A DNA stretch of 64,000 bases from Bryum argenteum (taxonomy: Eukaryota > Streptophyta > Bryopsida > Bryales > Bryaceae): the NCBI GenBank assembly GCA_037043015.1, contig CM073326.1, positions 10,796,345-10,860,344 on the forward strand, given 5' to 3'. Shown here one piece after another: positions 12,566 through 62,222 of this stretch. A model generated the notes under the pieces. That model was not told where the DNA came from. It made no database searches and saw only the letters and a list, made by a program, of their open reading frames with translations. The first letter of the stretch is position 1; each line of letters begins with the position of its first letter. The translations under genes were made by a program, and so were the position numbers.

Positions 12566-12935
12566 TTAACCCTTAAACGCCCATAGGGTCTGAAACGGGC
12601 AGCCCGAAATTGGATCACAACATTTTTTGGGCTTGGGCATCATGAATAGTGCACTTTTTGAACTTGGGCATCATGAATAGACCAATCAATGATGAGCTTG
12701 CAACCTCCTACAAGGTTATGTACAACCCCAACCTACCTACCACAATCCTTTCAAACCATAAAATCATACATACAAATTGTGATTTGAATTGTAAAATTTC
12801 ACTTTTTGAATGCATCATAAGACGGTGACCAGTTTGACATCAAAATATAAGTGAAAAATTGATTTCAGTGAGAGCTACAGAGAAGATTATGTTGGAATCA
12901 AGCCCCTCGGGCTTGCTTGGGCGTTTAAGGGTTAA
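12566..12935. mobile_element. TTAA-bounded MITE, family T1, copy 1 (370 bp)
   Basis: The copy begins TTAA-CCCTTAAACGCCCA and ends TGGGCGTTTAAGGG-TTAA, a 14-bp perfect inverted repeat inside TTAA. It carries a short internal direct repeat (ACTTGGGCATCATGAATAG at about 12632 and 12661). Three other copies in the window have 369-370 bp and high similarity. There is no coding capacity; this is a MITE-like non-autonomous element. Confidence 0.85.
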
Positions 12936-13224
12936 GGATATGCTACATAATGTTTATATTTTCCATTGTCCATTGACTTGAAGTTTTAGGTATGAGAATA
13001 TAGTGAGCAATAAAAGACAACAATGTTCTTGTAGTAGTTGTATGTAGACTGTTGCTTGATACAAAACTTGAGTCGCAAAAAGAAGATCTTCAAATTCTTT
13101 TACTTGTAGTATGTAGGTTCCCCGACGTAAATGGATATATGTCAAATTTTGAGTGTGTACAGTACTGATCTAGAGGTAAGTGTTGGCTACACTTTGGAAG
13201 AATCTCAAAAGAGGTAGAATATTT
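12936..13224. other. Short spacer between two T1 copies
   Basis: No gene or recognised repeat is visible. The 63-codon minus-strand frame at 12954-13145 has no recognisable features. Confidence 0.4.
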
Positions 13225-14072
13225 TTGTAACATTTAGTTGGTTAACCCTTAAACGCCTAGCTATACGGATTTGGGCAGCCCAGTATTGGATCACAACATC
13301 TTTTGCACTTGGGCATCATGAATAGTGCACTTTTTGAACTTGGGCATCATGAATGATCTAATCAATGATGAGCTTGCAACCTCCTACAAGTATTATACAA
13401 CCCCAACCTACCTACCACAATCCTTTCAAAGTACAAAATCACTCATACAAATTGTGATTTGAGTTCTAAAATTTCACTTTTTGAATGCATGAGAAGAAGG
13501 TGACCAATTTGACATCAAAATATTAGTGAAAAGTTATTGTGTTTGAGAGCTACAGAGGAGATTCTGTTGGAAACGGCCCCCTCGGGGCCGCTCAAGCATT
13601 TAAGGGTTAAAGCTCACAGCCCCCAATGAGGAGGTCGTGCGTTCTCCCCTCGTAGGTGCGGTGTTGACCACCATAGTTCACCTAACTATGGTGAGGGGTT
13701 CTTGGACCCCGTTGTATGTGTACCTCAAAGCCATCCACCCTCGAGAGGGGGAAGTAGTATTGTTCTACTTTCCCCTTGTCCAGTGGTCATCGGGATATTA
13801 GCATTACGAACCGACACTTCATTCACGCCGGCCCCTTAGAAAGGGACCGGAGTTTCTATCTATCTGTACCTCAAAGCCCTTGAGGGGGATATCATGTTGT
13901 GTATCTCTAAGGCACTAGTGGCTAGGTAGGAACTAGTGTACAGTAGTGTGTACCCCCAGAGGAGTTAATAGTCTCACCATTGGTGTGAAGACCTTCATCC
14001 AAGGATAGGTCAATCGTTCACTCTATTCACATCGGCCACTATTTAGGTTGGAGTTTATCTTCTCTGTAATAT
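13225..14072 (+). mobile_element. tRNA-derived SINE pair interrupted by a T1 element
   Basis: The sequence left of the T1 copy (TTTAGTTGG) plus that right of it (TTAAAGCTCACAGCCCCCAA) rebuilds a tRNA-like A-box region of the SINE seen intact at 17021. This is followed by a B-box-like GGTCGTGCGTTCTCCCC and the SINE body with CGGGATATTAGCATTACGAA and GGGACCGGAGTTTCTATC. A second, head-less and diverged unit follows from about 13855 to 14072. Confidence 0.7.
13242..13610. mobile_element. TTAA-bounded MITE, family T1, copy 2 (369 bp)
   Basis: Ends are TTAA-CCCTTAAACGCC and the diverged CATTTAAGGG-TTAA. The interior matches copy 1 (ACTTGGGCATCATGAATAG, CTACCTACCACAATCC, GAGAGCTACAG). It appears to have entered a TTAA inside the A-box region of a SINE. 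Confidence 0.85.
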
Positions 14073-14372
14073 TTCAAGGTAACAATTACCATGCAAATTT
14101 TGTTCTGGCAGGCTTGTTGGAGAGTGGTCAAAGGGAATCAATTCTAGAAAATGGGTAAAAGTTTGTGGGAGATTGGACCTTTTTCATAGTATTTTTGGGA
14201 CTTATCTTAGATTTGTAATTTGGATTAAAAGTTTTTTTTTCCCCTAAGATTTCTACAGGGTGCTCATTCTATTGCAAAGTGTCTGGTGGTAGAATTTGTA
14301 TACCAGATTCCAAAATTAAGACCTTCATCTAAAAGCTTTAGGTTTCAAATCTTGAAAATGCAGTTTAAGATA

Positions 14373-14417
<45 letters not shown>

Positions 14418-14735
14418 AAATTTTCTCTTAGAAAAATGAACCTCTTAGCGTGATTCCGGGTTCTAATAGGAACATTTTTATCTAGTAAATATCATCTCTT
14501 CATAAAGTGCTATATGAAGGGTTTTTTTAAAAAAAAAAAAAAAAAGCTTTTGAGACTCTCTTCATTAAAAAAAAAGCTTTTGAGACTCTCTTCATTAAGA
14601 TGCATTCAAAAATATTGTTATTTTTTTCCATAAGATCTTTAAAAAGGTGCATTATAATTTTAAAGTTGCACGTGGGAATCTTTGGGACCCCAAGGCCCGA
14701 CCATATGATTCATATGTTCATAACCGAAGCACTAC

Positions 14736-15389
14736 TTAACCCCTACAAACTTACTCCTAGGAATTTCAATTGTCTTTGATGAGTTGAATTTCAATTTGAG
14801 TCTATTTTGTACTCTGTCTGTCCCATTATAATTGTCTAGTAGGTTCTCTCAAATCTACCTCCCATCGTAGATTTGAGAAAACCTATTGGACAATTATAAT
14901 GGGACGAAGGGAGTATGATAGAAAGCTTAATAAAATTCAAGATTTTTTGAGTATATAGCATGGATTTTAGTAGAAGAGGTCTATTTTTGGACTACTTTCT
15001 TCTCTAGAATATAGGGTAGATTCCACCATTCTAGGCATTAATTGAGGCAAGAAAATTTTCTAGCATTGTTTTTTGGTTGTAGAGTGTTACTAATATAAAG
15101 GTGAACAACTTTCTAGTTGGTGATCTCTTTATTCCAATTGGTTTGCTGGTAGAATTTCTACTGCAAAGTGAAGATTCCGAACTTTTAATATCTAATTTGA
15201 GTACAAGTACATCATGTTCTTGGAATCTACAAGGCCTCATGGCTCCAAATTTGATCTAGATTATCTGTAGTAAGTCTGTTACAAGATTGTATAGTTAAGA
15301 TCTGAATGTCATACCTACATTTCCATTTATGACATTTCAAAGGAGATTTTGTTTTTGACTAAAAAGAGGTAAAGACATTTAGGGGTTAA
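14736..15389. mobile_element. TTAA-bounded element, family T2, 654-bp copy inside T4
   Basis: It begins TTAA-CCCCTACAAACTT and ends AAGACATTTAGGGG-TTAA, and its right half follows the 1296-2268 copy closely (CATGGATTTTRGT, GAACAACTTTCTA, GATCTGAAT). The left flank CACTAC and the right flank fit the T4 internal TTAA site read at 5351-5354, so the insertion point is directly visible. It contains a nested Stowaway-like MITE. Confidence 0.75.
14812..14913. mobile_element. Stowaway-like MITE, copy 1
   Basis: The 102-bp element is bounded by TA dinucleotides. Its right end, read inward on the minus strand, is CTCCCTTCGTCCCATTATAA, close to the CTCCCTCCGTYCC consensus of plant Stowaway (Tc1/mariner-type) MITEs. 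The left end is diverged (CTCTGTCTGTCCCATTATAA). The two halves form one long hairpin. It is nested in T2, which is nested in T4. Confidence 0.8.
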
Positions 15390-15758
15390 ATTTCATAGTG
15401 ACCCAAGTCAAATTACAAGTGATTTAGTAATGAAAATATTTCCAAGAGAAAAAGTCAAAAAAATGACCTCTTTAAGCTGCCTTGTTTCAGCTCGCAACCC
15501 AAGGATTGTCCTACAAGACTTAAAAATTGGAACTCAACTTTGCAAATTTTACCACATACACTTTGCAGTATAAGGAGCATCCATTAAAAATCTTAAGTAT
15601 AAATATTACTTCTAACCCCTTCATCTAAGGTGCCCAAAATTACAAAAACCTATCTTGGGTCTCAAGGAACTTTAGAGGTTAAAGTTGACTCGACAATTTA
15701 CCCACATCAAACTTAAAACTATTAAATCTTGTTCAATTTTAAGATTGTAATGGTCAAA

Positions 15759-16026
15759 TTAACCCCTAACTCTCCTTAAAACCCGAATCGGGTTTCGGAG
15801 GTTCCCGCAGGAGAAAAACTCAGCCAACTTTGACCATTATAATCTCACAAATGAGGAAGAATGAACGGTTCAAATTTGGTATGTGAGATGAATGTCAAGT
15901 GAACTTTGAGATCTTACGGTTGAATCTTTCAAATAATGCTTAGATTGAGATTTTTTGAGCTGAATCTAAGGGAAGGTCAAATTTTGCGACTTAGACCAAT
16001 TTGCAACAAGGAGAGTTAGGGGTTAA
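15759..16026. mobile_element. TTAA-bounded MITE, family T3, copy 1 (268 bp)
   Basis: Begins TTAA-CCCCTAACTCTCCTT and ends AAGGAGAGTTAGGGG-TTAA, a 15-bp perfect inverted repeat. The interior includes an AACCCGAATCGGGTT palindrome at the left. The copy at 22035-22302 has the same length in reverse orientation. Confidence 0.85.
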
Positions 16027-16439
16027 GCCAACGTTTTTCTTTCAGAAACTCCAAACAACCATTTTAGCTTCTTAAATTATGAGTCAATCTTCAAAACAAT
16101 TGCATTAATATCGTTCGAAATCTCTTGAATTGTTGAAAACTTTTACAATTTTTCTAAAAATGAAGATTTTCAATTGTGATATCTTACAACATAGGAAATC
16201 GAGTATATTCTTAAGAAACAAAAGAGACATTCTCTTCATTACCTTATCATAGATCTTGAGATGATTATTATGAAATCCATTTCTTTGTTAGAAATTTTAT
16301 ATATTTTGCACATGATACATAGGTGACACTCGTCATGTGATATTTGTTTTTTTAATCACCTTATATGTAGGGATATGCACATCATACACAAGTGACATTT
16401 GTGTGATATTCATATGTTAGCAAGGTGATATTATAGAGT
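16027..16439. other. AT-rich spacer
   Basis: No gene is visible. From about 16300 a degenerate GTGATA/TGATATT motif begins that continues past the SINE fragment to about 16760. Confidence 0.4.
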
Positions 16440-16765
16440 GTCCACCCTGAGAAGGGTTAGTAGTCCTATACCACTGTTGTTATGACATGTGGGCATACCA
16501 TCAAGGGTAGGTCGAATAGACACTATAACCACGCCAACCCATAGCGGTCTGATGTTCTTCCTCTTATTACCAAGGTGATAATTGGGTAATCTTCATATGT
16601 TACTTACATGATATACATGAGATACCCACATGGTAAGCAGATAACTAGGTGATACTTCTGGGATACTCATATGATAGTTGGGTGATAACTAGGTAATACT
16701 CACATGATACTTGTACGGTACCCAGGTGATAATTGGGTGATATTCATGTGATATTCTTCAGTATC
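16330..16765. repeat. Degenerate GTGATA(A/T) motif array
   Basis: The hexamer GTGATA and near variants (GATACTCA, GGTGATAAT, CATGATAC) recur many times, interrupted by a SINE fragment at 16440-16570. Clustering resembles the subterminal arrays of a DNA transposon, but no termini were found. Confidence 0.5.
16440..16570 (+). mobile_element. SINE 3' fragment
   Basis: It shares CCACCCTGAGAAGGGTTAGT, TGTGGGCATACCATCAAGGG, TAGGTCGAA and GTTCTTCCTCTTATT with 24008-24150, and more distantly with the 17021 SINE body. It lacks the tRNA-like head. Confidence 0.65.
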
Positions 16766-17020
16766 ACATGCATATCAATATCAAGATTTTTAACCTAAAT
16801 ATTTTTATATACTTCCGAATTCAAATGGGTAATTTGGAAACTTCACTTTATTGTTCTATTAAGGTCGGTGAAGAAACCCACCGGTCAAGAAATCAAGGGA
16901 AAATCTCGAATGTGATTGGTTGAAATTGATTCTCTTGAAATTAGATGTGATTGATTGAAGATGAAATTCTTGACCAACCAGTGAAGTTCTCCACCATAGC
17001 GTATAGTGTTACACTACAAA

Positions 17021-17461
17021 GGCACCACAAGCCTTGGCTTGGTGGTTGGGGCTCATGGCTCCCAACGGGGAGGTCGTGGGTTCTATTCCCCATGCCGGCG
17101 TGGTGCTCACTACTATAGTCCACCCAACTATTGTGGGGGTCCTTGGACCTTGTTGTATGGGTACCTCAAAATCCTTTGGGGGATACTATGTCAAGTATCT
17201 TCAAGGCACTAGTAACTAGGCTAAAAAGTAGCGTAGTTATAGTGTAGTATTGTTCCAATTTCCCCTTGTCCGGTGGCCATCGGGATATTAGCATTACGAA
17301 CGGACACTTCATTCACGTCGGCTCCACCCTCGAGAGGGGGGAGTAGTATTGTTCCAATTTCCCCTTGTCCGATGGCCATCGGGATATTAGCATTACGAAC
17401 GGACATTTCATTCACACCGTCCTCTTAGAAAGGGACCGGAGTTTCTATCTATCTATCTGTC
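17021..17461 (+). mobile_element. Full-length tRNA-derived SINE with duplicated body
   Basis: The head holds tRNA promoter-like boxes: GGCTTGGTGGTTGGGG (A-box-like) and GGTCGTGGGTTCTATTCCCC (B-box-like, about 34 bp on). The body contains a module (GTAGTATTGTTCCAATTTCC, then CGGGATATTAGCATTACGAA) present twice in tandem at about 17244 and 17343. The 3' end is GTTTCTATCTATCTATCTG. The flanks are ACACTACAAA (17011-17020) and ACACTGCAAA (17462-17471), a 10-bp target duplication with one mismatch. The long frames on both strands here are repeat artefacts. Confidence 0.8.
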
Positions 17462-17471
17462 ACACTGCAAA

Positions 17472-18551
17472 TAAAATAATGTCCAGTTTCATGCAAAGAA
17501 TAACCTAATGATGATAGTATACCAATCACAGTAATTATACAAATAGTGTCAAGATTGCCCACCGCTTCAATGTGTTGTCACATGAGAATCCCACTTACAC
17601 AAAGTTTCTTACCAATACCCGTCTTGATATCCGCCATCGTCAGTCATGCCCAGAAAACCGTAGCTGCTGCTGATTGTTGCCCTATGGTGCACAGACAGGC
17701 CGTTTCATTCAAGCTTTAAGTCACTTCAACACTGGTGACCAAAATTTTCCAAGCATGGGCACCCACCCAAATGCATGCAAATCGTGGCACCTTTTCACTG
17801 AATTTCGAACTAGAGTAAATATTTGCAATAGCCTCAGTACAATACGGTAATTCGATAGCCTGTTGTTGTCCTGGGACCAAGCTAGTATAGTATACATGTT
17901 GTACACACAGACAGCTGCCTAGCTAGAGTGCGGCCCACTTGCGATCGAAGTTGAAAGTATCAATGCAGTGAAAAGACTGAGGCATCTATTGGAGATCGCA
18001 AGAATCAAAGTTGCTATAACTTGTAGAACGAGTTTGGATACAGTACACACCAATTCATTGCTTTGAAAATGAAAGCAGGGTAACCTGCTCCTGTGGATTG
18101 GCTGATCGAGTCTGTACGTACAGTTGCAGTTGCAGTGCAGTATGACTCTCTTCTTCTTATAGCTGGCATGTTGTTGTTTCTGGGAATTGACTTCATTGCC
18201 AGAAGAGTGTCCTTTTTTGAGAGGCAGAGGAATTAAACCATTTCGGGAGAGGAATCTAGTCTAATTGTGGATAAGAATATTAATTCGAGTGATCACATGG
18301 CCAGCCAGCTTGTTGACCTGACCTTGGAAATACTGGATGCGTGTCCATCAGGGAAAGCACAGCAGTTGTAAGTACTCTGAAGATGATGAGTCACATGGAA
18401 ACCGGAATGAGTCAGAGACGGAATCAGGAATTCTGACTCATCAGTTCCGCCGAACTATGGAATTCAATATACTCTTTTAACGAAGTAAAGTTAGTTAAGC
18501 GTTAAGTAAGAAAAGAACCAAGGATTCTTTCTGAGCTTGTTTCAAGGTTGA
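17472..18551. other. Spacer without recognisable gene
   Basis: I see no splice-consistent exon chain. The base composition is more balanced than in the transposon clusters, and three TGA(G/C)TCA motifs occur near 18.4 kb. The approximately 60-codon minus-strand frames at 17721-17906 and 18014-18196 have no recognisable features. Confidence 0.4.
18387..18440. promoter_or_regulatory. Three TGA(G/C)TCA motifs within 54 bp
   Basis: TGAGTCA at 18387-18393 and 18408-18414 and TGACTCA at 18434-18440. This is the GCN4/bZIP-type core found in many plant promoters. No adjacent gene is identified, so function is open. Confidence 0.35.
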
Positions 18552-19140
18552 CGTTAACTCCTAAAGGTAGGCAGCCTCAAAATAGTCAAAATTGCCCTCT
18601 TTTGATTTGATGATGCAAGATGCAAATTTTTGAATTTGGACAAGTTTTGAATTGTGCAACCGTGAGATCTAGTACCTAGCTTGTACATGTACAAGTGTAT
18701 CAAATCTTAGATCCAAATTCCTCACCATTTGTGAGACCGTGAGGTTCAAAGTTTGAAAAATAGTTTTTTTCCATGTTGGAAAATGACAAAGTAAAGTTTT
18801 GGGGGCCAAAAAATTCCTCACCAATTTGTGAGACCGTGAGGTTCAAAGTTTGAAAAGTAGTTTTTTTTTTTTATCCATGTTGGAAAATGACAAAGTTAAA
18901 AAGTTTTGGGGGCCAAAAAAAACCATTTCGCATGGAGGCTCTTCAAATTCTTGTTCCTAGGTGAGTTAGGAACATGTTTATGCAATTTTTACCCTCTGAC
19001 GACTTGTAAAATCGATAGTAAGAGATGCTTGATTATTCACTTGGAGGTATACTGAAATTCAAATACAAAGGCCCATTTTCAACAATTGAAAAGGCGTGTA
19101 AAAATCATTGGATTGAAACCCAATGACTAGGGGTTAGACT
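18552..19140. repeat. Dispersed repeat R1, copy with internal duplication
   Basis: It matches 6845-7430 (AGCCTCAAAA, CACCATTTGTGAGACCGTGA, GGGGGCCAAAAA, TTATGCAATT, TGAAATTCAAATACAAA). A piece of about 80 bp around CTCACCAATTTGTGAGACCG is repeated twice (18720-18800 and 18812-18920). Confidence 0.6.
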
Positions 19141-19170
19141 ATTGTTACCCACTTGAAGTCTTGACCGGGT

Positions 19171-19592
19171 AATGGTTCCTGGTAGCTAACAGGGAGGCAC
19201 CAAAGAATCTATGGAGACCCTCCCAAGGGCTATTTGTTTAAGGTTTTGAATCTTGAAATGGGACATACGTGCAAATTACTCCAAGTGCATACTCCTTGAC
19301 AATTTAAACCAATACATTGAAAACTAGAGGGCTCCTTCACCCCTCCCCATCCTCCTTGGTACACTAAATTTGATAATTAGTGTTAGATTATTATAAGATT
19401 TGAAAATGCTATAAGTTTTGACTTTTGTTTAAAAAAATTTACCAAGAGCATTGATTCTGATACTATATAACGACCCCCATCTTGGCCAATACAGTGGGCA
19501 AAATTATTGAACAACAGTAAAAACTTATAACATGTTTATGTAAATTAGTATGTCTAACACTAATTATCAAATTTAGTGTAGCTGCTACCCAG
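19171..19592. mobile_element. Repeat R2 (GTAGC-ended foldback) split by a 217-bp MITE
   Basis: R2 ends are inverted repeats around GGTAGCTAACAGGGAGG and CCTCCTTGGTAGCTGC. Sister copies lie at about 24342-24548, 25083-25217 (inverted) and 27924-28256. In this copy the right end is split between CCTCCTTGG-TA and TA-GCTGCTACC by the element at 19362-19578. Confidence 0.7.
19362..19578. mobile_element. 217-bp TIR MITE with TA target duplication
   Basis: It has 26-bp perfect terminal inverted repeats starting CACTAAATTTGATAATTAGT and is flanked by TA on both sides (19360-19361 and 19579-19580). The unoccupied site, CCTCCTTGGTAGCTGC, can be read in the sister R2 copy near 24525. The TA duplication fits the Tc1/mariner superfamily, despite the CACTA-like first bases. 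The interior has no ORF. Confidence 0.85.
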
Positions 19593-21887: not shown

Positions 21888-21975
21888 TTCACACCCCCGA
21901 GAGTGCATAGAAGAAGATAATTGCAGTTTTGAGGTTTCAAGCTCCCAAAAAACACCAAGGAAAGTAAGGGGTTAA
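21888..21975. mobile_element. Tail fragment of a T4 element
   Basis: It matches the last 85 bp or so of the T4 copy ending at 5669 (AGTGCATAGA, TTTTGAGGTTT, AAGCTCCCAAAAA, AAGGGG-TTAA) and shares its terminal TTAA with the T3 element that follows. Confidence 0.65.
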
Positions 21976-22508
21976 CCCCTAAATTTTCCTTGTTGCAAAA
22001 TGGTTTGAGTCACAAAATGTGACCTCCATTTAGATTAACCCCTAACTCTCCTTGTTGCAAAACGGTCTAAGTCACAAAATTTGACCTTCTTTTAGATTAA
22101 GCTCAAAAAATCTCAATCCAAGCATTATTTAAAAGATTCAACCGTAAGATCTCAAATTTCACTTGACATTCTTCTCACATACCAAATTTGAACCGTTCAT
22201 TCTTCCTCATTTGTGAGATTATAATGGTCAAAGTTGGCTAAGTTTTTCTCCTTCGGGAACCTCCAAAACCCGTTTCGGGTTTTAAGGAGAGTTAGGGGTT
22301 AAGCTCAAAAAATCTCAATTTGAGCATTATTTAAAAGATTCAACCGTAAGATCTCAAAGTTCACTTGACATTCTTCTCACATACCAAATTTGAACAATTC
22401 ATCCTTCCTCATTTGTGAGATTCTTATGGTCAAAATTGACTGAGTAAGTTTTTCTCCTCCGGGTACCTCCAAAACCCGTTTCAATTTTTAAGGAAAGTTA
22501 GGGGTTAA
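21972..22508. mobile_element. T3 element interrupted by a second T3 element
   Basis: The outer copy starts TTAA-CCCCTAAATTTTCCTT at 21972 and ends AAGGAAAGTTAGGGG-TTAA at 22508. Without the insertion it is about 270 bp. It is cut at TTTAGA-TTAA, and continues with TTAA-GCTCAAAAAATC after the inner copy. The inner copy itself preserves the uncut version (TTTTAGATTAAGCTCAAAAA at 22091-22110), proving the insertion point. Confidence 0.85.
22035..22302. mobile_element. TTAA-bounded MITE, family T3, inner copy (268 bp)
   Basis: It has the same length as the copy at 15759-16026 in reverse orientation, with ends TTAA-CCCCTAACTCTCCTT and AAGGAGAGTTAGGGG-TTAA. It is inserted in an older T3 copy, so it moved later. 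Confidence 0.85.
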
Positions 22509-23668: not shown

Positions 23669-23699
<31 letters not shown>

Positions 23700-28256: not shown

Positions 28257-28854
28257 AGTACCCATTTTTGAGCACTCTCCCTTACTTACTACAAGAAGAT
28301 CAATGATTGTAGTGTGTGAAGCAAGCAAGGCACCCACCGAAAGACCAAGCAAACCCAGTGGCTCACTCATCAGTCCAATTTACAACATTATCAATCAAAA
28401 TAATTTAAAAACATTATGTGTATAGTGCATAGGATAATAGTTGGTGTACTTGTACGTGGATAATCAGCATGTTAGTTCCTTGGTTGTGGGAATTTTTTGA
28501 TTCCATTTGTTAGCTTTGATTCCCTTTGTTAGATTTTATAAAGGTTCCAGTTTCTTGGATGGGGTGTAAGAATATTCTTGGTTGGGGTGGCGACGTAGAG
28601 GATGACTGACCGCCTCGTTACAGTAAATTTGAAATAGTCTGGGTCTTTTTGTTGACCAAGTTTTTGATTGGTTAAATTTGCCAGTTTTGCCAAACGAAAC
28701 TTTTCAAAATATTCCCTAACCACTTTTTTCATCACGTTTTTGCCCACTTTTGCTTGTTCATACACTACAATACAACATTTCTTCAAAAGTAAGCGAAGGT
28801 CTTATCCAAATTCCTAAACCCACCCTTAATGCCAAGTGGGAACATACTACCTTG
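28257..28854. other. Spacer
   Basis: No gene is recognised. The 85-codon minus-strand frame at 28529-28786 has no recognisable domain. Confidence 0.35.
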
Positions 28855-29105
28855 ACCCCTATACGTCCTTGGGGGGTATTATTAGCCAAAAACTCACTTT
28901 CAAAAAAAGTGTTATAGATGAATATTAAGATAAGCGATCTAGATCTCAACCGTACAAACTTGTAATATACTTGTTATAAATCATGTGGACCAAACCTTGA
29001 CTCATAGGACCTCATAGCTTGCAAGATGATAACGTATTAGTGTGGAAAGCAGGCTACAAAATAACATGATTTTCTCTTTGATGTGAAAATACTACATTTT
29101 CGTTG
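28855..29105 (-). mobile_element. Truncated T2 fragment, inverted
   Basis: It starts with a T2 end lacking TTAA (CCCCTATACGTCCTTGGGG) and follows the 1296-2268 copy on the minus strand (CTCAACCGTACAAACTTGTA, TGTGGACCAAA, TGATAACGTATTAGTG). Confidence 0.65.
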
Positions 29106-29106
29106 G

Positions 29107-53394: not shown

Positions 53395-53530
53395 GTAAGG
53401 GGCCAAAGGAGGCCAAACATTCTCTCAATGTGATTGGTTTTTTACTTGTAGTTCAAAAATTCACCAATCACGTCGGGAGGATTTTTTCTCTTCATCGGCC
53501 TCAAACTACGGATTCACACCCTATGTAAAG
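53395..53530. mobile_element. Foldback repeat R5, copy 2
   Basis: The arms GGGGCCAAAGGAGGCCAAAC...GTGATTGGTTTT and ACCAATCACGTCGGGAGG...ATCGGCCTC are inverted, as in the copy at 30056-30195. Confidence 0.55.
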
Positions 53531-53954
53531 TGTACTTGAGTAAAAATGGAGGTCGTGTAAATATCACGATATTTTTTTTTATGGGGTTGTCAAACAACCC
53601 TTCATGTTCTTATTACCATAATATTTGAAAATCACAATAATGAGTAAAAATGAAGGCCATCAAGATATCAAAGATTTTTATTTTTTTGTTTGCCAAATGT
53701 AGCCTAAAATGTTTCAACAATCCTTCAAACTAGAGTATTATAATTATAACAACCTCTTACACAAACAATTCTAAATCCCACTTTCCATGTCTCCTACACA
53801 CTTATCAATTTATGTTTTTTTCTCGCGACACTTCATCGAGTTGGTGCAACATAATTGATTTGGATCACAAAGGAATATATCTCTTCATAGCCAACTGAGA
53901 GACTCTTCACATTAAACTCAAGGACAACTTACCATAATCTAGATATTCTTTACA

Positions 53955-54095
53955 TGCACTGTCAAGAGACCCATAGGGCTGCAGGAGGACAAAAATCCTC
54001 TCACTAGGATTGGTCCATTTCTTGGAGTTTATAAAATAGACCAATCACAATTAGAGGATTTTTGTCCTTCCGCGGCCTCATGCACTACTTAACTT
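53955..54095. mobile_element. Foldback repeat R5, copy 3
   Basis: The left arm GGACAAAAATCCTCTCACTA-GGATTGGTC pairs with the right arm GACCAATCACAATTAGAGGA-TTTTTGTCC. It lies about 250 bp upstream of the PLATZ-like ATG. Confidence 0.65.
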
Positions 54096-54239
54096 TTCAT
54101 ATAAAGTGTATAAAAAACATCCTTCAAACTAGTACTGCCAAAAGGTTTTATCATCTTTTGTAATTTCTAACGTGGAAAAGTACCTTGTGAAATCTAAATG
54201 TTCTCCTTTCAAGACTAAGACGAAGGCTGCATCAACAAC

Positions 54240-54246
54240 TATATAA
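54240..54246 (+). promoter_or_regulatory. TATA box of the PLATZ-like gene
   Basis: TATATAA in the context CAACTATATAAGACC, 99 bp upstream of the ATG at 54339, a normal distance for a plant TATA box plus short leader. Confidence 0.7.
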
Positions 54247-54338
54247 GACCATCCTTCCCTAATCATTCTCCGCATTCAAGTTGCATCGCGCCAAGGTTGG
54301 GCGCTCCCTTTGCTTTTGTAGAACTCTTACTAGGGATC

Positions 54339-54917
54339 ATGGCCGCACCTAGTCATGATGTGGTAGGAGCTGTACAACCCCATGTACCTCTCACAGACGA
54401 AGTTAGGGCAGTATGGGAGGCTTTCATTGGGGCCGATTATCGTAGAGACACGTCTGTTGCTTGCATCTTCCAATGTAATGAGAGGAAGTGCAAGCGGTTC
54501 TTTTGTGTTCAATGCAGGGTTGGTGGGTTGTGTAAGAAGATGTTCGAGGGAGTTGATGCTCCTCACAACGGCCATCACAAATTGCAAGTATTCAAAACTA
54601 GCGGTTTTGATTCAGTAAGGAAGAAGGATCTACCGGAGTTTCTCAATCTTCACGAAGTTGCTGAGTACACATCAAACGAGGAGAAAGTGTGTTACTTGCG
54701 AAGGAGGGAAGCTACAACATCAGGGTATCGGATTCAGTGTGCGGGTTGCCACAATCACGTCTCTAATGCGAAGAATTTTCAACAAAGGCAACACAATGTG
54801 TTTTTTGCTAACGCTTGCTCGATTGAGTGTCTACTGGAGTACGATCTCCAATGTAAACCGGCGCAGTTTACTCATTGCAGGAAGCAACCTCACCCCACCC
54901 GAAGTCCTTTCTTCTAA
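54339..54917 (+). CDS. PLATZ-like zinc-binding protein
   Basis: An intronless frame of 192 residues; the true start is the ATG at 54339 (MAAPSHDVVG), as upstream frame has no ATG. PLATZ proteins are plant AT-rich-DNA-binding zinc proteins. Here a first Cys/His cluster spans about 42-80 (C42, C46, C51, FFCVQC at 54-59, C65, then HNGHH at 76-80), followed by the family's LQVFKTSGFDSVRKKDL-like strand region, a YLRRRE turn, and a second cluster CAGC (134-137) paired with ACSIEC (159-164). The order and spacing fit PLATZ, but the first cluster departs from the usual C-x2-H...C-x2-C pattern and the second spacing is wider (22 rather than about 10-11 residues). Family introns are also missing, so a retroposed or strongly diverged member is possible. 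A TATA box lies 99 bp upstream. It is probably nuclear. Confidence 0.72.
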   Translation: MAAPSHDVVGAVQPHVPLTDEVRAVWEAFIGADYRRDTSVACIFQCNERKCKRFFCVQCRVGGLCKKMFEGVDAPHNGHHKLQVFKTSGFDSVRKKDLPEFLNLHEVAEYTSNEEKVCYLRRREATTSGYRIQCAGCHNHVSNAKNFQQRQHNVFFANACSIECLLEYDLQCKPAQFTHCRKQPHPTRSPFF

Positions 54918-55483
54918 ATCTCTTATTGTTTACATGTGAGTACGATCTGTCATTCGTTTCTTTTCACATTTCATCTTTTTATCTTTCATTGTATAGAAGC
55001 TAGAAGCATGTTTTACAGCTTCTTTGGTTCTAAGTGTCAACATTTGTTTGTTTCCTTCCAAGGTCATGGCTGCGTAGGGACTTTAGGATGCCAAACTACT
55101 TCATTCAATGTTGGCATTGCTTGGTTGTCAACACGTCAAGGCGGCAAAATTAGGAACAACATGAAACATTGATTGTAGTGTTGCTAGAACGTACATAGAA
55201 GATGATAGCACGAATTGCGTCGCACCTTTGTGAAAGGATATTATTAATACTCCCATGGAATTGATGGAAGCCCTTGGCTTTTATGATCTTATTATAATAT
55301 TTGCACTGGACCTCATATTGTTTGCAATTCTATGTGACTAATGGGAATGTAAATGCCGAAGTAGTCAATGTAGCAAGAGTCTTAATAAAGACTTACTAAA
55401 CTATACATGTTAAATTAGTTTCTAGACTTAGCTTGTTTGACCTAAAAATAATAATAATAATAATAAATAAAAATTTAAAAAAA
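54918..55483. other. 3' region of the PLATZ-like gene and spacer
   Basis: No further gene is recognised. It ends in a (AAT)n stretch at about 55446-55468. Confidence 0.4.
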
Positions 55484-55577
55484 AATCACAACCCCCCAAG
55501 AATACATAGAGGTGAAGAATTGCAATTTTGAGGTTTCAAACATCCAAAAAGCACATAAGGATCTTTAGGATTTAAAC
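55484..55577. mobile_element. Tail fragment of a T4 element
   Basis: ATACATAGAGGTGAAGAATT, TTTTGAGGTTTCAAACA, then AAGGATCTTTAGGATTTAA match the last 90 bp of the 5084-5669 copy; the terminal GGGG-TTAA is mutated. Confidence 0.55.
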
Positions 55578-55649
55578 ATAAAATTTCTGTGCACCTCATT
55601 CATTATCGAGAGCTATAAAACTCTCTTCATAAGAATTGAGTATGAAGAT

Positions 55650-55752
55650 CCTCACCAATCTCCCCTTGTCCGGTGGCCATCGGGAGATTAGCATTACGAA
55701 CAGACACTTCATTCACACCGGCCCCTTAGAAAGGAACCGGAGTTTCTATCTC
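55650..55752 (+). mobile_element. SINE 3' fragment
   Basis: CCCCTTGTCCGGTGGCCATC, GGGAGATTAGCATTACGAAC and GGAACCGGAGTTTCTATCTC match the 3' module of the SINE at 17021-17461 with few changes; the head is absent. Confidence 0.75.
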
Positions 55753-56132
55753 ATCTGAAGATCCTCGTCTCATGATGGAATCAAGTGTGGAAAATGCGTT
55801 CAAGGGCTCTTTATCCTAAGGAACAAGATCTGTGATACATTTCCTTTTTTTTTATGAAAAGAAATCAGGCTTGTAACTTTAAACAGCACCTTGTTAGTCC
55901 TTTCAAGAAGGCCCCCCTGAGTTGCAGTTTGGCCTCCTGTCCATGCTTTCCTCATTATTGTCGTCAATCAATATAATATAATATTGCTAAAAAGGATGGT
56001 GATCATTTGTACAGTAACTGTAGACATGAAGTGGGTACAATGACTCTTTCCTTCCATTATAGCATTTGGGGTACTCACTAATGTGGTCCCTAACTATGAT
56101 CTTTCTTGTTACTTATATAATCGTTACCGAGA
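55753..56132. other. Spacer
   Basis: No gene or recognised repeat is visible. Confidence 0.4.
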
Positions 56133-56460
56133 TGTTGCTACATAGTGACCTTCACTATGCAGCAACATTAATTAATCAATCTATGTTCTCTCATGCCACA
56201 TGGACCCCATGAGCGCACTTTATTTGATAATTTTTTTCTCTTTGAGGCTAGCTCCAGCCCTCTTGTACTTGCTCAGGGGAGGAAGCAGCTACAAATAATA
56301 TGAGATAAATCCGCTCCCCCAAGACCCCTTACCACCAAGGCCCCTCGCCCCCAAGACTCCTCCAGCTTGACCCTTCCATACCCCCTCTTCTCTGGTTTTT
56401 AAGCCTTCATTTGCGGTTCGCATTCCATAGGCTTTACCGAGATTTTGGGACATAGTAATT
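56133..56460. repeat. Repeat R4, copy 2, with terminal hairpin
   Basis: It starts GAGATG with a hairpin (arms GTTGCTACATAGTGA and TCACTATGCAGCAAC) and follows the 26148 copy: CCACATGGACCCCATGAG, CCCTCTTGTACTT, AGGGGAGGAAGC, CCCCCAAGACTCCTCC and GAGATTTTGGGA. The 84-codon minus-strand frame is a repeat artefact. Confidence 0.7.
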
Positions 56461-57215
56461 TTGGAAGGCTGAGTATTCAAGGTGAATATTTGGAAGGTTT
56501 TTAAAAAAATGGGTTGGGGTGCAAGAAATCCAACCCTCCCCATGGTAGAGAGGTTGAGATTGGCCTATTTAAGTTTACACTAGGAGTTGGGGTCAACAAT
56601 ATTTTAACATACTCGTCCTTTCTTTTCATCTCCTCGATGACCATGTCAAGACAATGAGTGCACTTGAGGCACTTTTTTGTTCATGGGCCCGAGTGCCCGA
56701 TTGCATGCCACATGGGATGGATTGGCCTCTATTCTTCAATGGCCTTGGCCATAGTGTAAACTCACCCTAAAGACGTTGTGGTATTTTCATGCGCCATCAT
56801 AACATCATTTTTTGGAAGGCTTTATCAGCCTTATCAAGGCTGATAACCACCAACAATGCTCTTGTAGGTTCAAATCTATGTGATAACGCGGTGGCTACTG
56901 TCACGATAAATGCACAACCTCGTGCATTTTTTCCGAATAAGAAGGTAAATTGAAGTTGCAGCATCCGACCTTACTGCCGATATTGCAAACTGTGATCAAT
57001 TATGCAATTTAATGTTAGATTATGTATCTCTCCTAGCATATTCTGCACCATTCGCGGTCATTGGTTTTGCCCTCCAGACTCGCCCGAAGATCGCGTACGC
57101 TGCAGAATATGTCGGGAGAGGACCGTTCCGTCTAATACGATTCGATCACCTATGGTGTGTATGCATGGACCTTGTAATATAGCAGGGGCATGCATGAGTG
57201 GAATGGAAATGAACC
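56461..57215. other. Spacer
   Basis: No gene is recognised. A short duplicated AAGGCTTTATCAGCC/AAGGCTGATAAC hairpin lies near 56815-56847. Confidence 0.35.
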
Positions 57216-57585
57216 TTAACCCTTAAACGTTCATGGGGTCTGAAATGGGCAGCCCAAAATTGAATCACAGCATCTTCTGGACTTGGGCATCATGAATAGT
57301 GCACTTTTTGAACTTGGGCATCATGAGTGAACCAATCAATGATGACCTTGCAACCTCCTACAAGGTTTTGTACAACCCCAACCTACCTACCACAATCCTT
57401 TCAAAGCACAAAATCACTCATACAAATTGTGATTTAAACTGTAAAGTTTCTTTTTTTGAATACATCACAAGGAGGTGACCAGTTTGACATCAAAATATAA
57501 GTGAAAAGTTCATTACAGTGAGAGCTACAAAGCAGATTCTGTACGAAAAGAGCCCCTCGGGCTGTCTTGGGCGTTTAAGGGTTAA
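57216..57585. mobile_element. TTAA-bounded MITE, family T1, copy 3 (370 bp)
   Basis: Ends are TTAA-CCCTTAAACGTTCA and TTGGGCGTTTAAGGG-TTAA. Same orientation and length as copies 1 and 4. Confidence 0.85.
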
Positions 57586-57591
57586 ACTGGA

Positions 57592-58010
57592 AAGTCAAAC
57601 TGCCGTGGAACTACCGTTTTTTTTCATTGCGAGGTGAAATTTTCATTTTTTGAACTGTGAGATTTGAACGGTGAGATCATACCTTGCTATCATTTTTACA
57701 TGCACAGAAAACAAAACTTTCAGAATAAAAGGTAAAATCTCAATGTTTGGTGAAATTTTTAAGTTTCTCCGTTTTGATCAATTTTGGGCAGATTTTGAGA
57801 ATAAAAGAGCATACAATACATTTTGGGCAGATTTTGAGAATAAAAGAGCATACAATACATTTTGGGCAGATTTTGGATAGTGTTTTCAAACTTATCTCCT
57901 AAAGTGTAAGGAATTTTGAAGCATGAGATGACATTTCCGAAAGGTATGAAAAAACCCTACAACTTGCAAATTAAAGGTTTCAACATCATGCGATATATAA
58001 ATAGTATGTC
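57592..58010. repeat. Dispersed repeat R1, copy 4, with tandem 44-bp units
   Basis: It matches R1 at 7420-7640. Within it TTTTGGGCAGATTTTGAGAA followed by TAAAAGAGCATACAATACA is repeated in tandem between about 57781 and 57873, which makes the short repeated peptide WADFENKRAYNTF. Confidence 0.75.
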
Positions 58011-58906
58011 AGAGGCTGCCCCAAGTGACGGGCTAAGTGCACGGCAATAGGTGGTTTCACCATACCATGAAAGTGTACAACTCATCCACATTGGTGGGCA
58101 TGTGTCAGAATATGTGGGGGACCCAGTTGCCCAGGTGGGTGAGTGAGAATGTAGCTATCGAGCAAGTAACTGAATCCCGAAATCCGGCACGGGATTCAAA
58201 CCTTCCCAAAGCAGAAGGAGCTTCTGCAGTTAAGACTGGCAAGGGTACTGCATCCGGAGGTGCATTGCGAGTCCATGCACACAGAGCTAGCTATGGCGTC
58301 CACTGCCTTGTCAAATCTACAATACCACACAGCAACAACCCTAATGCTTCTGATTCATTGCTGCTCCTCCTGGTTCTACAATTAGAACCGCTTTGCTTTG
58401 CTTTCACTGCGTTACTCGATTGATCGCCCGCCCGTCGGCACTCTTTCCATGGCCACGATCGCCATCTCCACGCTTTCGTCGTGTTACTTGCTGCAATGCC
58501 AGCTTTGCACTCTGATCATGCCGTTCTAGCAAAATTACTACCAAATACTTAGTTAACGATCAGACAATTGTCTGAGCGACGGACCAATTCGGTACTGAAC
58601 TGTGTTCGATCAGATTGTCTGAGCGGCGGACCCCATCCGATGGCGGCACTAGCCGGTTACAGAGTGAAGAAGGTGGGGGCGTCAGATCCAAGCAAGTCTG
58701 TTCTGAGAGGTTTGTAGCAAGGATGTCGAAACATTGGTCGGAGTACCGCTAGGATAGAGTAATCGGGGTTGGGGAAATCTAGATATCAGGCGGGCAGGGA
58801 TGAGTGAGGTTGTCTCGGTTTGAACAATCTGGAGAATTTAAAGCGAAGTGGTGTTGTGATTGTGGTCTTGGTTCTACTCTACAATGTCGAGGTAGCAGTC
58901 AATGCA
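58011..58906. other. Upstream region of the GDU-like gene
   Basis: A 128-codon frame at 58037-58423 has no recognised domain. A CAGATTGTCTGAGCGRCGGACC segment is repeated at about 58561 and 58611. Directly before the GDU-like ATG the same frame is open from 58808 and codes a hydrophobic stretch (RSGVVIVVLVLLYNVEVAVN) but has no ATG. Confidence 0.4.
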
Positions 58907-59765
58907 ATGGAAGCGCCGATTGTGTGGAGAGGCAGGGCGCTTCTGGGTTCTGGGCATGCGCAAGCTCCGGGGCAAATGGTTGGTGCATCGGCTCCCGTAG
59001 CGCTGGTCAGACATGAGAGAACGCATTACCCGCTGGTGGCAGCGTTGCTGATTCTAATGGCGGTGGGCGTGGCTGCCATTTGCTGCTGCTGCTGGCGATG
59101 GGAGGGTCACATGCGATTACATGCTCGCCTTCGAGGCCACCACCATACGCGAGACCATTCCGACAGCAGTAGTCATCCTTCTTCTTCTTCATCATCATCA
59201 TCATCATCATCAACTTCTCAGGAATTTCGCAGCGCTCCTCCAAGGGTATGCAATCTCTCTCACTCTCTCTCACTCTCTCTCACTCTCTTCTCAATCCAAT
59301 TCGACGTTAACAATCCAGTGCTCAACCTGTTGATTCTGCACAAATTACCCTCAATTGGATGTCGTGTGTAGTAAGAACTCTTGTGATCTTTTTCCTCTTG
59401 TTTTCATTGTGTCATTTCTCAGACTGTCACGTGTAGTGAGATTAGTTGCACTTTTCTGTGCCGATCCTCAACCATTCACTCACTGAGTTTCTCGGCATAA
59501 ACCAACAGTCTATAATCCATGGCACTTTCCCTTTGTGTGTTTACCCGCTACTCGAAACCTACCATTTTTCATTATGCCAATCCCCCATTTTGACGTTGAT
59601 ATTGAACTGCAGGTATCATCTGTGTTAGTGCTGATGCCCGGAGACGACATTCCTCGGTTCATGGCGTGGAGCGTACCACAAGGATCCGCCCCTTCCATCC
59701 CTGAAGAAAAACCTCGTAAACCAACACAACAAGTGGAGCCTGACCTAAAAGTTGCCGATGTTTGA
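58907..59765 (+). CDS. GLUTAMINE DUMPER-like single-pass membrane protein
   Basis: Two exons, 58907-59245 and 59613-59765 (donor AGG-GTATGC, acceptor CTGCAG), phase 0, give 163 residues. GDU proteins are plant membrane proteins that raise amino-acid export and act with a RING ubiquitin ligase. Visible here: a short N-terminus, one membrane segment at about 41-63 (YPLVAALLILMAVGVAAICC then CCW), a His/Ser-rich linker with an 11-serine run from a TCA/TCT repeat, and after the intron the sequence VLVLMPGDDIPRFMAWSVP. That last part corresponds to the GDU VIMAG motif followed by D-x-P-x-(F/Y)-x-A. The motif reads VLMPG, so it is diverged, and the ACSYWR after the membrane segment is replaced by CCCCWRW. 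Typical GDUs are intronless; this one has an intron. The identification rests on layout plus the two motifs. Confidence 0.62.
59179..59290. repeat. Coding (TCW)n serine repeat and intronic CTCTCTCA repeat
   Basis: TCTTCTTCTTCATCATCATC and following triplets (about 59178-59214) encode the serine run; just after the donor the intron holds four CTCTCTCA units (59255-59286). Confidence 0.85.
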
Positions 59766-61852
59766 TATAGTTTCTGTTTGAAACAACATCGATCGATCGG
59801 CAAGGTATGTATGCTAGACAATGATATGACAATCGGGTAGAGTGGGTAACGTCAATATCTCAACTTGAAAACATGCACTGCAGTAGAAAGAGTAACATTC
59901 TGTGCCCCCCGCGTACCTCCCCAACTTACAAATCACAAGGGACACATGAAGCTCTTTAGCATGGGCTTTGATATATATGATTTTATATGCAAAAAGAGAG
60001 CTTATAATGTGCTATCATCATCCGGGCTATGCATATTTCTTGAAGCTCATGTCATCGCTGAATTCTGATGTGCGGAGCATGCTAATGTGTACCATGAACG
60101 GCTGTAGTAAAGTCGGAAGAAGATCGATGAGGACATCAAACCAACCCTCGATCGGTATCTTTATAAATGAGATGGTAATCTGATTCGTGGCAATACGCAA
60201 TGGTTGCCGTTTTGGCAAACACCCGTCGGATTGTGCTACCACTGTCGATAGTATCTTCGGCCTTCAGATTGTCGATCGGTCTTTAATGATGGTGCCATGC
60301 TTCCCGGAGCACGTCCCTCGAAGCAGTACAGATTGCGCGGTTGCTGTAAAGATTGCTTGCTGCCATTCACTTCGATCATTTTCTTCCAAGACAGCAGCAC
60401 CACTCCGTTTTCCTTTCATTGGCTTGTTTCATTGACGTTAGCAAGTTTTCCTACTACAGGTCTGTCAATGTGAATGTGGAGCCGCTCCATGTTACGATGG
60501 ACCATGTCGCCACCGCCAATGACAGTGATTCAATGCATTCAGATTCAGTAGGGTTCTATATTCGATCCGGGTACTGTGGACACGTAATCGGAGCATTTTC
60601 TCGTCGTGTGGCGAATCACAAATCATTATTTTTTAGGAAACAATCAGTTTGAGAGAGATGATTCCTAGAAATTTATCCGCATGACAGACTAGGACGTTCC
60701 ATGACCTCGGTCCTCGAAGTCCTTTCTTCCTCGTTGCACGCAGAGTTACGAGAAAACCTGAACCTCCACAAGCTTAGCAGGAAGCAGAACTGATTATCCA
60801 TCACCCGTCCATCCAGTACATTATTTCTCAACTTTCTTAAGATTAGTGTTCACTTTGAGTCACCATTGCAATCAATGTGGCTTTGTCTTCTTTTTTTCAA
60901 GCCACCAATTGCACCATTTCCAATAGATTCTTCCACTTGCAAGAAAGTATGCATGCTCCCACATTCAGTGTTATGGTTTGACAATTTAGAGATGTAACAA
61001 TATGATGACGTGTGCCATTTAGTGTTAACGTTTGTCACACCAATTAACAACTCGTGTGTAGTGGAAAGGTGGTTGAGTAAAGCTACAATTAAAGCCATAG
61101 TGGCACTTTTAAGCCATATTGTGCTATTCTGATTTTACTCGAACCACCTTTTCATTAGTGAAGTGTAGGGAATGGTATACAGCCTCAAGAGAATGCGTTC
61201 CGTCTAGTGTGGTTTGTAATCTTCAGAGGTCTTGATTGACAATGTAATTACCTTCTATGATCATGAAGTTTAGTAAGACAATCACTATCATATTTCCTTC
61301 ATGACGTTATATAACCAGGGCTTCATTCACGAACACATCTGCACAAAGTATTCACATAAGTTGGCCCAAGAAAGATTGTATTCAAAAGCTTTGAAGCACC
61401 ATCTCCATTTACAAAAATCTACGTTTTACTCACACACAAAGGTTTAATGTTGGTTCATCAAAATCTTACGAACTCTAAGGTGGACTGCTCATTAGGTTTG
61501 GGAAATCCATGATGAAGATGAAATTGTGAGTAATTTTTATCCAATGGGAAAGTACATGGATGACTAGATCAAGTGGAAGCATCATCAATTCTGGACCCTC
61601 CTGCAATTTGTTATGAATGTTTAAAGTTGAACTTGTAAGGTTCCGCAAATGGTGATCTAAAATTACACCCTAAAATCTCCACTGCTCTCAATGTACCTAA
61701 GGGATATCAGACTTCAAAGCTCTCAATGTACCTCTGGATTGAAAGCTCTCAGGAGCCATATCTGGCATTACATCAATTTCAAGTAGTCTACCTTATGCGT
61801 AATTCAGTGAAAGTTTGGTGTCACCTCGTCAAAATTGGAGCTATATACATCA
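59766..61852. other. Spacer downstream of the GDU-like gene
   Basis: The stretch 60050-60660 has balanced base composition and several 70-100-codon frames on both strands (for example 60353-60652), but no splice-consistent chain or recognised domain was found. From 60840 on the sequence is AT-rich. Confidence 0.35.
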
Positions 61853-62222
61853 TTAACCCTTAAACGCCCATGGGGTCTGAAACGGGCAGCCCAAAATTGG
61901 ATCACAGCATCTTTTGGACTTGGGCATCATGAATAGTGCACTTTTTGAACTTGGGCATCATGAATAGGCCAATCAATGATGAGCTTGCAACCTCCTACAA
62001 GGTTATGTACCACCCCAACCTACCTACCACAATCCTTTCAAAGCACAAAATCATTCATACAAATTGTGATTTGAATTGTGAAATTTCACTTTTTGAATGC
62101 ATTAGAAGAAGGTGACCAGTTTGACATCAAAATATGAGTGAAATGTTGAGTACAGTGAGAGCTACAGGGAAGATTCTGTTGGAATCATGCCCCTCGGGCT
62201 TGCTTGGGCGTTTAAGGGTTAA
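61853..62222. mobile_element. TTAA-bounded MITE, family T1, copy 4 (370 bp)
   Basis: Ends are TTAA-CCCTTAAACGCCCA and TGGGCGTTTAAGGG-TTAA, nearly identical to copy 1 throughout (ACTTGGGCATCATGAATAG, CAACCTCCTACAAGGTTATG, AACCTACCTACCACAATCC). Confidence 0.88.

Follow-up and report, generated by a model that had tools for sequence, protein, structure and literature searches.

TTAA-flanked MITEs probably mobilised by piggyBac-type transposases in a putative plant genome

TTAA-flanked families in the window

The window, i.e. the whole 64,000-nucleotide stretch of DNA that was analysed, hosts copies of TTAA-flanked families denominated T1 to T5, listed below with their degenerate relatives.

1296..2268, + strand: T2, TTAA-flanked MITE, 973 bp; TIR CCCCTAAACGTCC, 13 bp, perfect
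4627..5070, + strand: T5, fifth TTAA-flanked family, 444 bp; ends CACTAGGACC; TIR CACTAGGACCGAT
5084..5669, + strand: T4, probable piggyBac MITE, 586 bp; TIR CCCCTAAAGATCC, 13 bp, perfect
6121..6588, no strand assigned: degenerate T2 relative, right end GGTTAA
12566..12935, + strand: T1a, probable piggyBac MITE, 370 bp including both TTAA; TIR CCCTTAAACGCCCA, 14 bp, perfect
13242..13610, + strand: T1b, degenerate T1 copy, 369 bp; perfect TIR of just 8 bp
14916..15389, no strand assigned: degenerate T2 relative, right end GGGTTAA
15418..15682, no strand assigned: degenerate T4 relative
15759..16026, - strand: T3a, TTAA-flanked MITE, 268 bp; TIR CCCCTAACTCTCCTT, 15 bp, perfect
22035..22302, + strand: T3b, TTAA-flanked MITE, 268 bp; perfect TIR of 15 bp; orientation opposite to T3a
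22299..22508, + strand: partial T3 copy, TTAA in common with T3b
28852..29095, no strand assigned: T2-relative fragment
55505..55575, no strand assigned: T4-relative fragment
57216..57585, + strand: T1c, T1 copy, 370 bp; perfect TIR of 10 bp
61853..62222, + strand: T1d, T1 copy of an apparently recent burst, 370 bp; perfect TIR of 14 bp

The sizes given for T2, T3 and T4 in a preliminary description of this DNA, and their TTAA flanks, were recovered in the window sequence. T1 had been described as a 370-bp family of four copies, three of exactly equal length; three copies measure 370 bp and the fourth 369 bp. Perfect inverted ends of 13-15 bp, attributed to the four families, are found in six of the eight listed, the exceptions being T1c and T1b. 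The interval 12566-62222, to which the families had been assigned, holds T1 and T3, but T2 and T4 fall outside it. T5 (4627-5070) was absent from the earlier family list.

Pairs of TTAA-flanked ends that are perfectly inverted over 13 bp and at most 1200 bp apart occur seven times in the window, one of the seven being T5; 100 resamples drawn from a first-order Markov model each had none. The four T1 copies are 88-94% identical among themselves, T1b being 88-90% identical to the others. T3b is abutted on either side by partial T3 copies, and each overlap corresponds to the four bases TTAA. The window has 40 ORFs of 90 aa or more, and a Pfam scan of 14 of these identified one BTB domain, and a PLATZ-like and a DUF match below the cut-off, the former just below; eleven ORFs had no match. 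Neither Rfam nor tRNA searches found anything in the window.

Transposase genes and assignment of the families

The genome-wide search for DDE_Tnp_1_7 transposases proposed in the preliminary description was positive, as genes encoding the PF13843 domain lie between TTAA-flanked CCCTTAAACGCCC(A) ends. At least 116 matches were found (116 scored of 775 candidates; best E 7e-82), and the same profile search found none in 14 control genomes. The matched core is stop-free in 93 of the 116. Across the 30 cores with the best scores, the catalytic D residues of the triad are conserved in 30, 29 and 30 sequences, and a fourth D in 29. A search for viral relatives, made on viral contigs with an 11-sequence alignment, gave 53 pattern matches, none of which was confirmed as a relative.

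Followed outward, seven of eight transposase loci proved to be complete TTAA-flanked elements of 4.5-5.4 kb (5199, 4950, 5412, 4469, 5049, 5286 and 4940 bp). Three of these elements have imperfect inverted ends, with perfect runs of 7, 8 and 8 bp, and about 19 of 30 transposase loci, inspected by eye, lack a CCC-type TTAA end in their 1.5-kb flanks. The core frame reaches at least 897 aa in only three complete elements (897, 915 and 1187 aa); in the other four it spans 514, 494, 477 and 662 aa, the 662-aa core containing a stop, and introns or decay are possible reasons for the short frames. The element at C1:23339974-23345172 encodes an 897-aa ORF (PF13843, E 1.4e-82) which matches the moth piggyBac structures 6x67/6x68 (E 2e-29) and piggyBat, 9c0f (E 8e-24). 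A C-terminal stretch of the CxxC...CxxC...H type was recognized by eye in this and related ORFs, and had no domain-model match. The N-terminal part of about 420 residues of the roughly 900-aa ORF has no Pfam or PDB match, and its 413-aa version found none among solved structures at E<=1.

At E<=1e-3, T1 matches three complete elements at both ends and one more at its right end. T1 and its partners have TIRs in common, and the subterminal sequence is unlike between left and right ends. The left 41 bp and the right 64 bp of T1a match ends of elements of autonomous type in the same orientation, and the right end of the element C2:27235192-27240240 is 95% identical to the right 39 bp of T1c; T1b did not match piggyBac element ends at E<=1e-3. 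The early assignment of T1 to the piggyBac type is thus borne out by orientation-specific subterminal sequence common to T1 and transposase-bearing elements. The same holds for T4, as both its ends are matched in a further piggyBac-bearing element. This TTAA-flanked element, C9:14630848-14635787, has its two ends matched by T4 positions 1-167 and 374-586, respectively (170 bp at 70% and 218 bp at 76% identity), with a PF13843 core, interrupted by one stop, between them. Shuffled queries gave no match in 20 rounds, for the T1 and the T4 comparison alike. T4-like MITEs are frequent near any locus, for instance beside L039 and L070, and chance placement has to be weighed; the two parts of the T4 match, however, lie on either side of the transposase and keep one orientation, a pattern that chance neighbours would not produce.

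Because piggyBac-bearing elements have matching ends, T1 and T4 are very probably non-autonomous piggyBac MITEs mobilised by endogenous piggyBac transposases, T1 by one lineage, T4, and probably T3 too, by another. PiggyBac is a 'cut-and-paste' transposon. By analogy with the moth element, the transposase would bind the left and right ends, excise the element via TTAA hairpins and rejoin it at another TTAA; the putative cysteine-rich domain may read subterminal palindromes, and T2 and T5 would owe their movement to related lineages within the superfamily. Among the first six complete elements, C2:21851246-21855714 and C6:14697972-14703257 match no window family.

The piggyBac label had been extended to T2 and T3 as well. 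For T2 it is suggested by TTAA and similar ends, for T3 by these and by sequence shared with the neighbourhood of transposase genes. An origin of T2, T5 or T3 from another TTAA-targeting superfamily, such as Sola3, which also targets TTAA, is unlikely. It draws on the CACTAGG ends of T5, and on the result that the loci examined yielded no transposase partner ending like T2 or T5. Against it, T4 and its piggyBac partner have ends (CCCCTAAAGATCC) similar to the CCCCTAAACG of T2, as does L035, beside a piggyBac core, at the one end found for it; its other end was not found. T3 has sequence in common with elements of T4 type and shares stretches of 29-119 bp with the 3' flank of five piggyBac cores (L020, L027, L028, L034 and L038); no element with both T3 ends was found beside the transposase loci examined. 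T5 ends start with CACTA, as would those of CACTA elements, which make a 3-bp duplication; a genome-wide count that covered ends with TTAA gave 89 T5 ends (control 6), and 38 pairs, of which 22 measure exactly 444 bp among those listed.

Recent movement and target site

At least 40 scored copies of T1 are 99-100% identical; they include the window copy T1d and lie on nine contigs within unrelated flanks. T4 is similar, with at least 40 scored copies, among them that of the window, at 99-100% identity. Judged from these identities, movement of both families is recent. Large-segment duplication, another source considered for near-identical copies, is rejected in view of the unrelated flanks. Recent mobility had been guessed from the equal length of T1 copies; this was right for T1d, but equal length alone is no proof, given the divergence of the window copies. 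That divergence would suit the reading of the families as old fossils, made near-identical by large-segment duplication or gene conversion, as would T2, of whose 40 scored copies (7604 first-look candidates) those other than the window copy are 94-96% identical to it, and the stops found in 23 of the 116 transposase cores. This reading is improbable in view of the near-identical T1 copies on nine contigs, of the T4 copies, and of the score of 258.4 bits common to six transposase loci.

The target appears to be strictly TTAA. The sequence TTAACCCTTAAACG was found 5,945 times genome-wide (2991+2954), and its reversed control four times (1+3). Variants lacking the first T, VTAACCCYTAAACG, are present at 261 places (114+147; control 73+61 = 134), a count about twice its control and not down to control level. 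The eighth base was allowed to be C or T, so that T2-type ends are covered too. TTAA is found on both sides in 28 of the 30 T1 loci compared, and the 20 bases flanking T1 at 30 loci hold at most 0.30 bits on the left and 0.48 bits on the right. At locus L068, T1 occupies a single unit of a tandem repeat, and adjacent units show the same site empty, with a single TTAA; at L041 the site is unoccupied in four related repeats. Among the matches listed, 9 of 18 secondary matches have exactly four bases in common with the adjacent match, which points to copies that landed in the TTAA at the end of older ones. In a TTAA context, comparing filled with empty sites does not by itself tell whether TTAA or TA was duplicated; TTAA is favoured because of the first-T variant counts and the enzyme type. 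TA, TAA or TTA duplications, which would have spoken against piggyBac, were sought genome-wide and none was seen. That PIF/Harbinger or Tc1/mariner MITEs, both common in plants, merely lie in TTAA contexts is thus extremely improbable, even if the TTAA palindrome leaves a TA duplication formally possible: PIF/Harbinger, with a 3-bp TTA/TAA duplication, is ruled out by the first-T variant count and the partner enzyme, Tc1/mariner (Stowaway), with a TA duplication and a free adjacent base, by the variant count, and for T1 both are refuted by the PF13843 domain encoded by elements with T1 ends.

Host and comparison with known systems

The presence of piggyBac 'in a plant' is plausible from the TTTAGGG repeats and the PLATZ-like ORF below cut-off. 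The superfamily is best known from animals, fungi and protists; derivation from a contaminant of this kind is nevertheless hardly credible, since the matches lie within megabase contigs, the window's own contig C6 among them. We are dealing with a known superfamily in an under-reported host. The chances seem evenly balanced that a land plant, perhaps a moss, here houses a living radiation of native piggyBac, with at least six transposase lineages featuring a long uncharacterised N-terminal part, about ten thousand TTAA MITEs derived from more than one lineage, and bursts so recent that elements may still move, in a DNA-transposon class unnamed in five-superfamily plant MITE surveys.

The Trichoplusia ni piggyBac (6x67, 6x68) has CCC-type terminal repeats, as here. 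It likewise shares the TTAA target, the DDD core, aligned over about 400 residues, and subterminal sequence unlike at the two ends; its C-terminal cysteine-rich stretch has a putative counterpart here, judged by eye. It differs in host, here probably a plant, and in the ORF, here about 900 aa with its N-terminal part of about 420 residues. The elements described here, of 4.5-5.4 kb, are also about twice as long as the 2,472 bp given in the excerpt of PMC10140906. PiggyBat of Myotis lucifugus (9c0f), the best profile match (E 8e-52), has the piggyBac core and differs in host, length and N-terminal part. Its ends are of CACTT type, reminiscent of T5.

Animal genetics makes heavy use of piggyBac, which enters plants only as a foreign tool. 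A native, probably still mobile plant piggyBac, if confirmed, would provide a home-grown mutagenesis and excision system and a host in which to study how plants silence piggyBac, and would imply that an entire class can escape plant repeat catalogues that recognise five TIR superfamilies. The earlier guess is in any case made concrete, as complete elements, their ends and dependent families can be named.

Among the entries listed in searches of open-access literature, and in the excerpts consulted, native piggyBac was not described for any moss or liverwort; earlier reports elsewhere are possible. A moss-genome paper (PMC10619864) contains only the word 'piggybacking'; the excerpts of a ciliate paper (PMC9942856) and of a plant-tool review (PMC10905368) have no bearing on native plant elements. 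PiggyBac-labelled MITEs are listed for angiosperms in the portion available of PMC10004981. They are similarly short, non-autonomous and placed by TIR and TSD; there they are named in a list, whereas here T1 and T4 have transposase-bearing partners with the same ends. The C-fern repeat table, in the excerpt of PMC6890710, reports 1,230 PiggyBac fragments, 0.00% of the assembly. The piggyBac label is shared with that land plant; here thousands of ends and complete elements were found.

TTAA-flanked families and their target site

The families T1-T4, brought forward in the preliminary description as TTAA-flanked repeats, were confirmed in the window sequence, T1 and T3 at the positions claimed. 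T2 and T4 lie within the window too, but outside the span to which the group had been assigned. Perfect inverted ends of 13-15 bp, attributed to all, are found in T1a and T1d (14 bp), T2 and T4 (13 bp) and both T3 copies (15 bp), but are reduced to 10 bp in T1c and 8 bp in T1b. At seven TTAA-flanked pairs in the window the ends are perfectly inverted over 13 bp, versus none in each of 100 Markov resamples. A fifth family, T5, accounts for one of these pairs.

TTAA-flanked elements of the window
1296-2268, T2
4627-5070, T5, CACTAGGACCGAT ends
5084-5669, T4
12566-12935, T1a
13242-13610, T1b
15759-16026 and 22035-22302, T3
57216-57585, T1c
61853-62222, T1d

T5 features CACTAGG ends, TTAA flanks and ACGCGTAACATAT-type subterminal repeats. 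An unrelated 132-nt dispersed repeat (13734-13865, 17224-17454, 55624-55755) is found also in five of the genome loci taken for comparison (L032, L051, L055, L057, L058). The window hosts in addition a BTB/POZ ORF (11281-11922, E 2e-23) and a PLATZ-like ORF (54297-54917), the latter below the Pfam cut-off (24.1 bits versus 25).

End patterns and control patterns were counted in the assembly (258.8 Mb, 25 contigs), in which the window occupies 10796345-10860344 of contig C6. The T1-type end TTAACCCTTAAACG occurs 2991+2954 times (reversed control 1+3), and variants starting with a base other than T (eighth base C or T) 114+147 times (control 73+61). The first T of TTAA is therefore required, as expected of piggyBac and unlike elements duplicating TA or TAA/TTA; duplications of the latter types are contradicted by this need. 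The T2/T4-type end TTAACCCCTAAA was found 7028+7164 times (control 90+82). If ends are mostly paired, both types together correspond to roughly ten thousand copies, an estimate drawn from end counts. T1-ended elements vary in size: among 23 pairs read from the end listing of contigs C1 and C2, eight measure 370 bp, six 242-243 bp and two 79-80 bp. The T5 end pattern TTAACACTAGGACC is rarer (43+46, control 3+3); 76 of the 89 can be joined into 38 pairs spanning 426-469 bp, with a length of exactly 444 bp in 22 (manual count).

Transposases and complete elements

A genome search for the DDE_Tnp_1_7 domain (PF13843), the check proposed along with the initial suggestion of piggyBac-type activity, gave at least 116 matches (all those scored, of 775 candidates; best E 7e-82). 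None of 14 control genomes was matched. A stop interrupts 23 of the 116 cores (manual count). The three catalytic aspartates are present in 30, 29 and 30 of the 30 best-scoring cores. Single-linkage clustering of these cores gives six groups at 50% identity; at 90% there are eighteen. A profile built from 11 cores matches both moth piggyBac and piggyBat at 9e-48 or better.

CCC-type TTAA ends are found by eye inside the 1.5-kb flanks of 11 of 30 transposase loci. Eight of the 11 were followed outward, and seven proved to be complete TTAA-flanked elements; at the eighth, L035, no right end was found within 2.5 kb.

Complete elements, with length and perfect inverted run
C1:23339974-23345172, 5199 bp, 13 bp
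C4:18396030-18400979, 4950 bp, 13 bp
C3:4050008-4055419, 5412 bp, 7 bp
C2:21851246-21855714, 4469 bp, 8 bp
C2:27235192-27240240, 5049 bp, 14 bp
C6:14697972-14703257, 5286 bp, 16 bp
C9:14630848-14635787, 4940 bp, 8 bp

The 897-aa ORF of the C1 element resembles, among solved structures, moth piggyBac (2e-29) and piggyBat (8e-24), and its C-terminus is, by eye, cysteine-rich in the piggyBac manner. The first ~420 residues match no Pfam or PDB entry, and are 48-63% identical to four other ORFs of the lineage; being conserved, they are probably coding. Stretches of ~400 residues, conserved within lineages, precede the core in several transposase ORFs (L010, L024, L033 and others); for that of the L010/L039 protein, neither Pfam nor the PDB gave a match. 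The 5199-bp element contains a minisatellite (L039:1414-1788), built of short units and open in several frames.

Relation of the window families to the elements

Eight T1-T4 copies and T5 were compared with the ends of the first six complete elements listed above (E<=1e-3). At the C1 and C4 elements, T1a, T1c and T1d all match the left and right ends in the same orientation. The 5049-bp C2 element is similarly matched at both ends by T1a and T1d, and at its right end by T1c; it carries at both ends the 14-bp repeat of T1, CCCTTAAACGCCCA. T1a and T1d also match the C3 element, with orientation again preserved, at its right end. Short matches in opposite orientation correspond to the inverted repeat itself. 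At this threshold no query matched C2:21851246-21855714 or C6:14697972-14703257, nor did T1b, T2, T3, T4 or T5 match the ends of any of the six; shuffled queries gave zero matches in 20 rounds. Among the parts shared by T1 and the elements are a left motif, GGGCAGCCC (4/6 elements), and two right motifs, GCCCnAGGGGC (exact in 3/6) and CTGTAGCTC (4/6). In moth piggyBac the cysteine-rich domain binds an internal palindrome near the ends (PMC7351741), and by analogy the shared motifs may serve the same purpose.

T4 is tied to the C9 element, the core of which (L028) carries one stop. A T4-like end lies in the right flank of this core, and the T4 left end on the other side. One end of the element aligns with T4 positions 1-167 (170 bp, 70%, E 3e-12) and the opposite end with positions 374-586 (218 bp, 76%, E 1e-31). 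The two alignments share one orientation and enclose the core, and the element has TTAA at either end. T4 from position 348 is found also, in the same orientation, 1.2-1.4 kb past the 3' end of cores L020, L027, L034 and L038; together with L028 they make up five of the 12 members of the largest core group at 70% identity, and belong to three closer sub-groups of it. Shorter stretches of T3 match the same region 3' of all five cores, and T3 and T4 may be sister deletion products. T4-like matches at L013, L021, L032, L039 and L070 are placed differently, and look like neighbouring MITEs. In this comparison T2 fragments were found in two places only (L021, L070), and T5 had no match. T1 and T4 are thus very likely piggyBac MITE families, and T3 is probably one as well; T2 and T5 are candidates by their TTAA flanks and inverted ends.

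Copies, recent movement and distribution

The best 40 scored copies of T1d (itself included), of 3032 first-look candidates, are 99-100% identical and full length, two stopping one base short, and are spread over nine contigs. TTAA flanks both sides in 28 of 30 T1 loci examined, the right TTAA having one changed base in the other two; with two more diverged copies in the same loci, one clipped by the locus end, the count is 29/32. Information content in the 20 flanking bases does not exceed 0.30 bits on the left and 0.48 bits on the right (30 loci). At L068 a T1 copy is inserted in a short tandem repeat, where it occupies one unit; both adjacent units have a single TTAA at the same site. The repeat around the T1 copy of L041 has relatives at L050, at L066 and in two window stretches; in these the site is empty, reading TTAA once and TCAA three times. 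Nine of 18 secondary matches listed for the T1-T4 searches overlap a neighbour by exactly four bases (manual count), the overlap produced when an element lands in the TTAA at the end of an older copy.

The best 40 scored copies of T4 are also 99-100% identical; other scored copies of T3 and T2 are 96-98% and 94-96% identical to the window copy, respectively. Scored copies stand at the top of thousands of candidates, and these values therefore reflect the age of the most recent bursts rather than of the families. The recent mobility earlier read from the equal lengths of window T1 copies does not follow from length alone, as these copies are just 88-94% alike, but holds for the dispersed T1d and T4 copies: their near-identity shows movement in the recent past.

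piggyBac had been described as best known from groups other than land plants. Plants are named as hosts without detail (PMC8086355, PMC10140906, PMC10813416), and a review lists PiggyBac as an angiosperm MITE superfamily (PMC10004981); piggyBac in plants is therefore not unheard of. A survey of 207 plant genomes assigns MITEs to five superfamilies, piggyBac not among them (PMC12550479); TTAA does not occur in its main text, and no occurrence of 'piggybac' was counted for the paper. Complete, numerous, recently active piggyBac elements with MITEs are, in the searchable literature, at least under-reported in plants.

Contig C1 (44.1 Mb, 17% of the assembly) is poor in these elements, with 94 of 5,945 TTAACCCTTAAACG ends (manual count of the listing), five of the 116 transposase cores and one of the best 40 T1 copies; T5, in contrast, has 25 of its 89 ends there. 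The contig might be a sex chromosome, contain few genes or be unusual in some other way. TTTAGGG arrays are abundant in the assembly (997+224, control 0) and, along with the PLATZ-like ORF of the window, make a plant host likely. Short interstitial arrays of this kind are dispersed along C1 (first 25.8 Mb listed).
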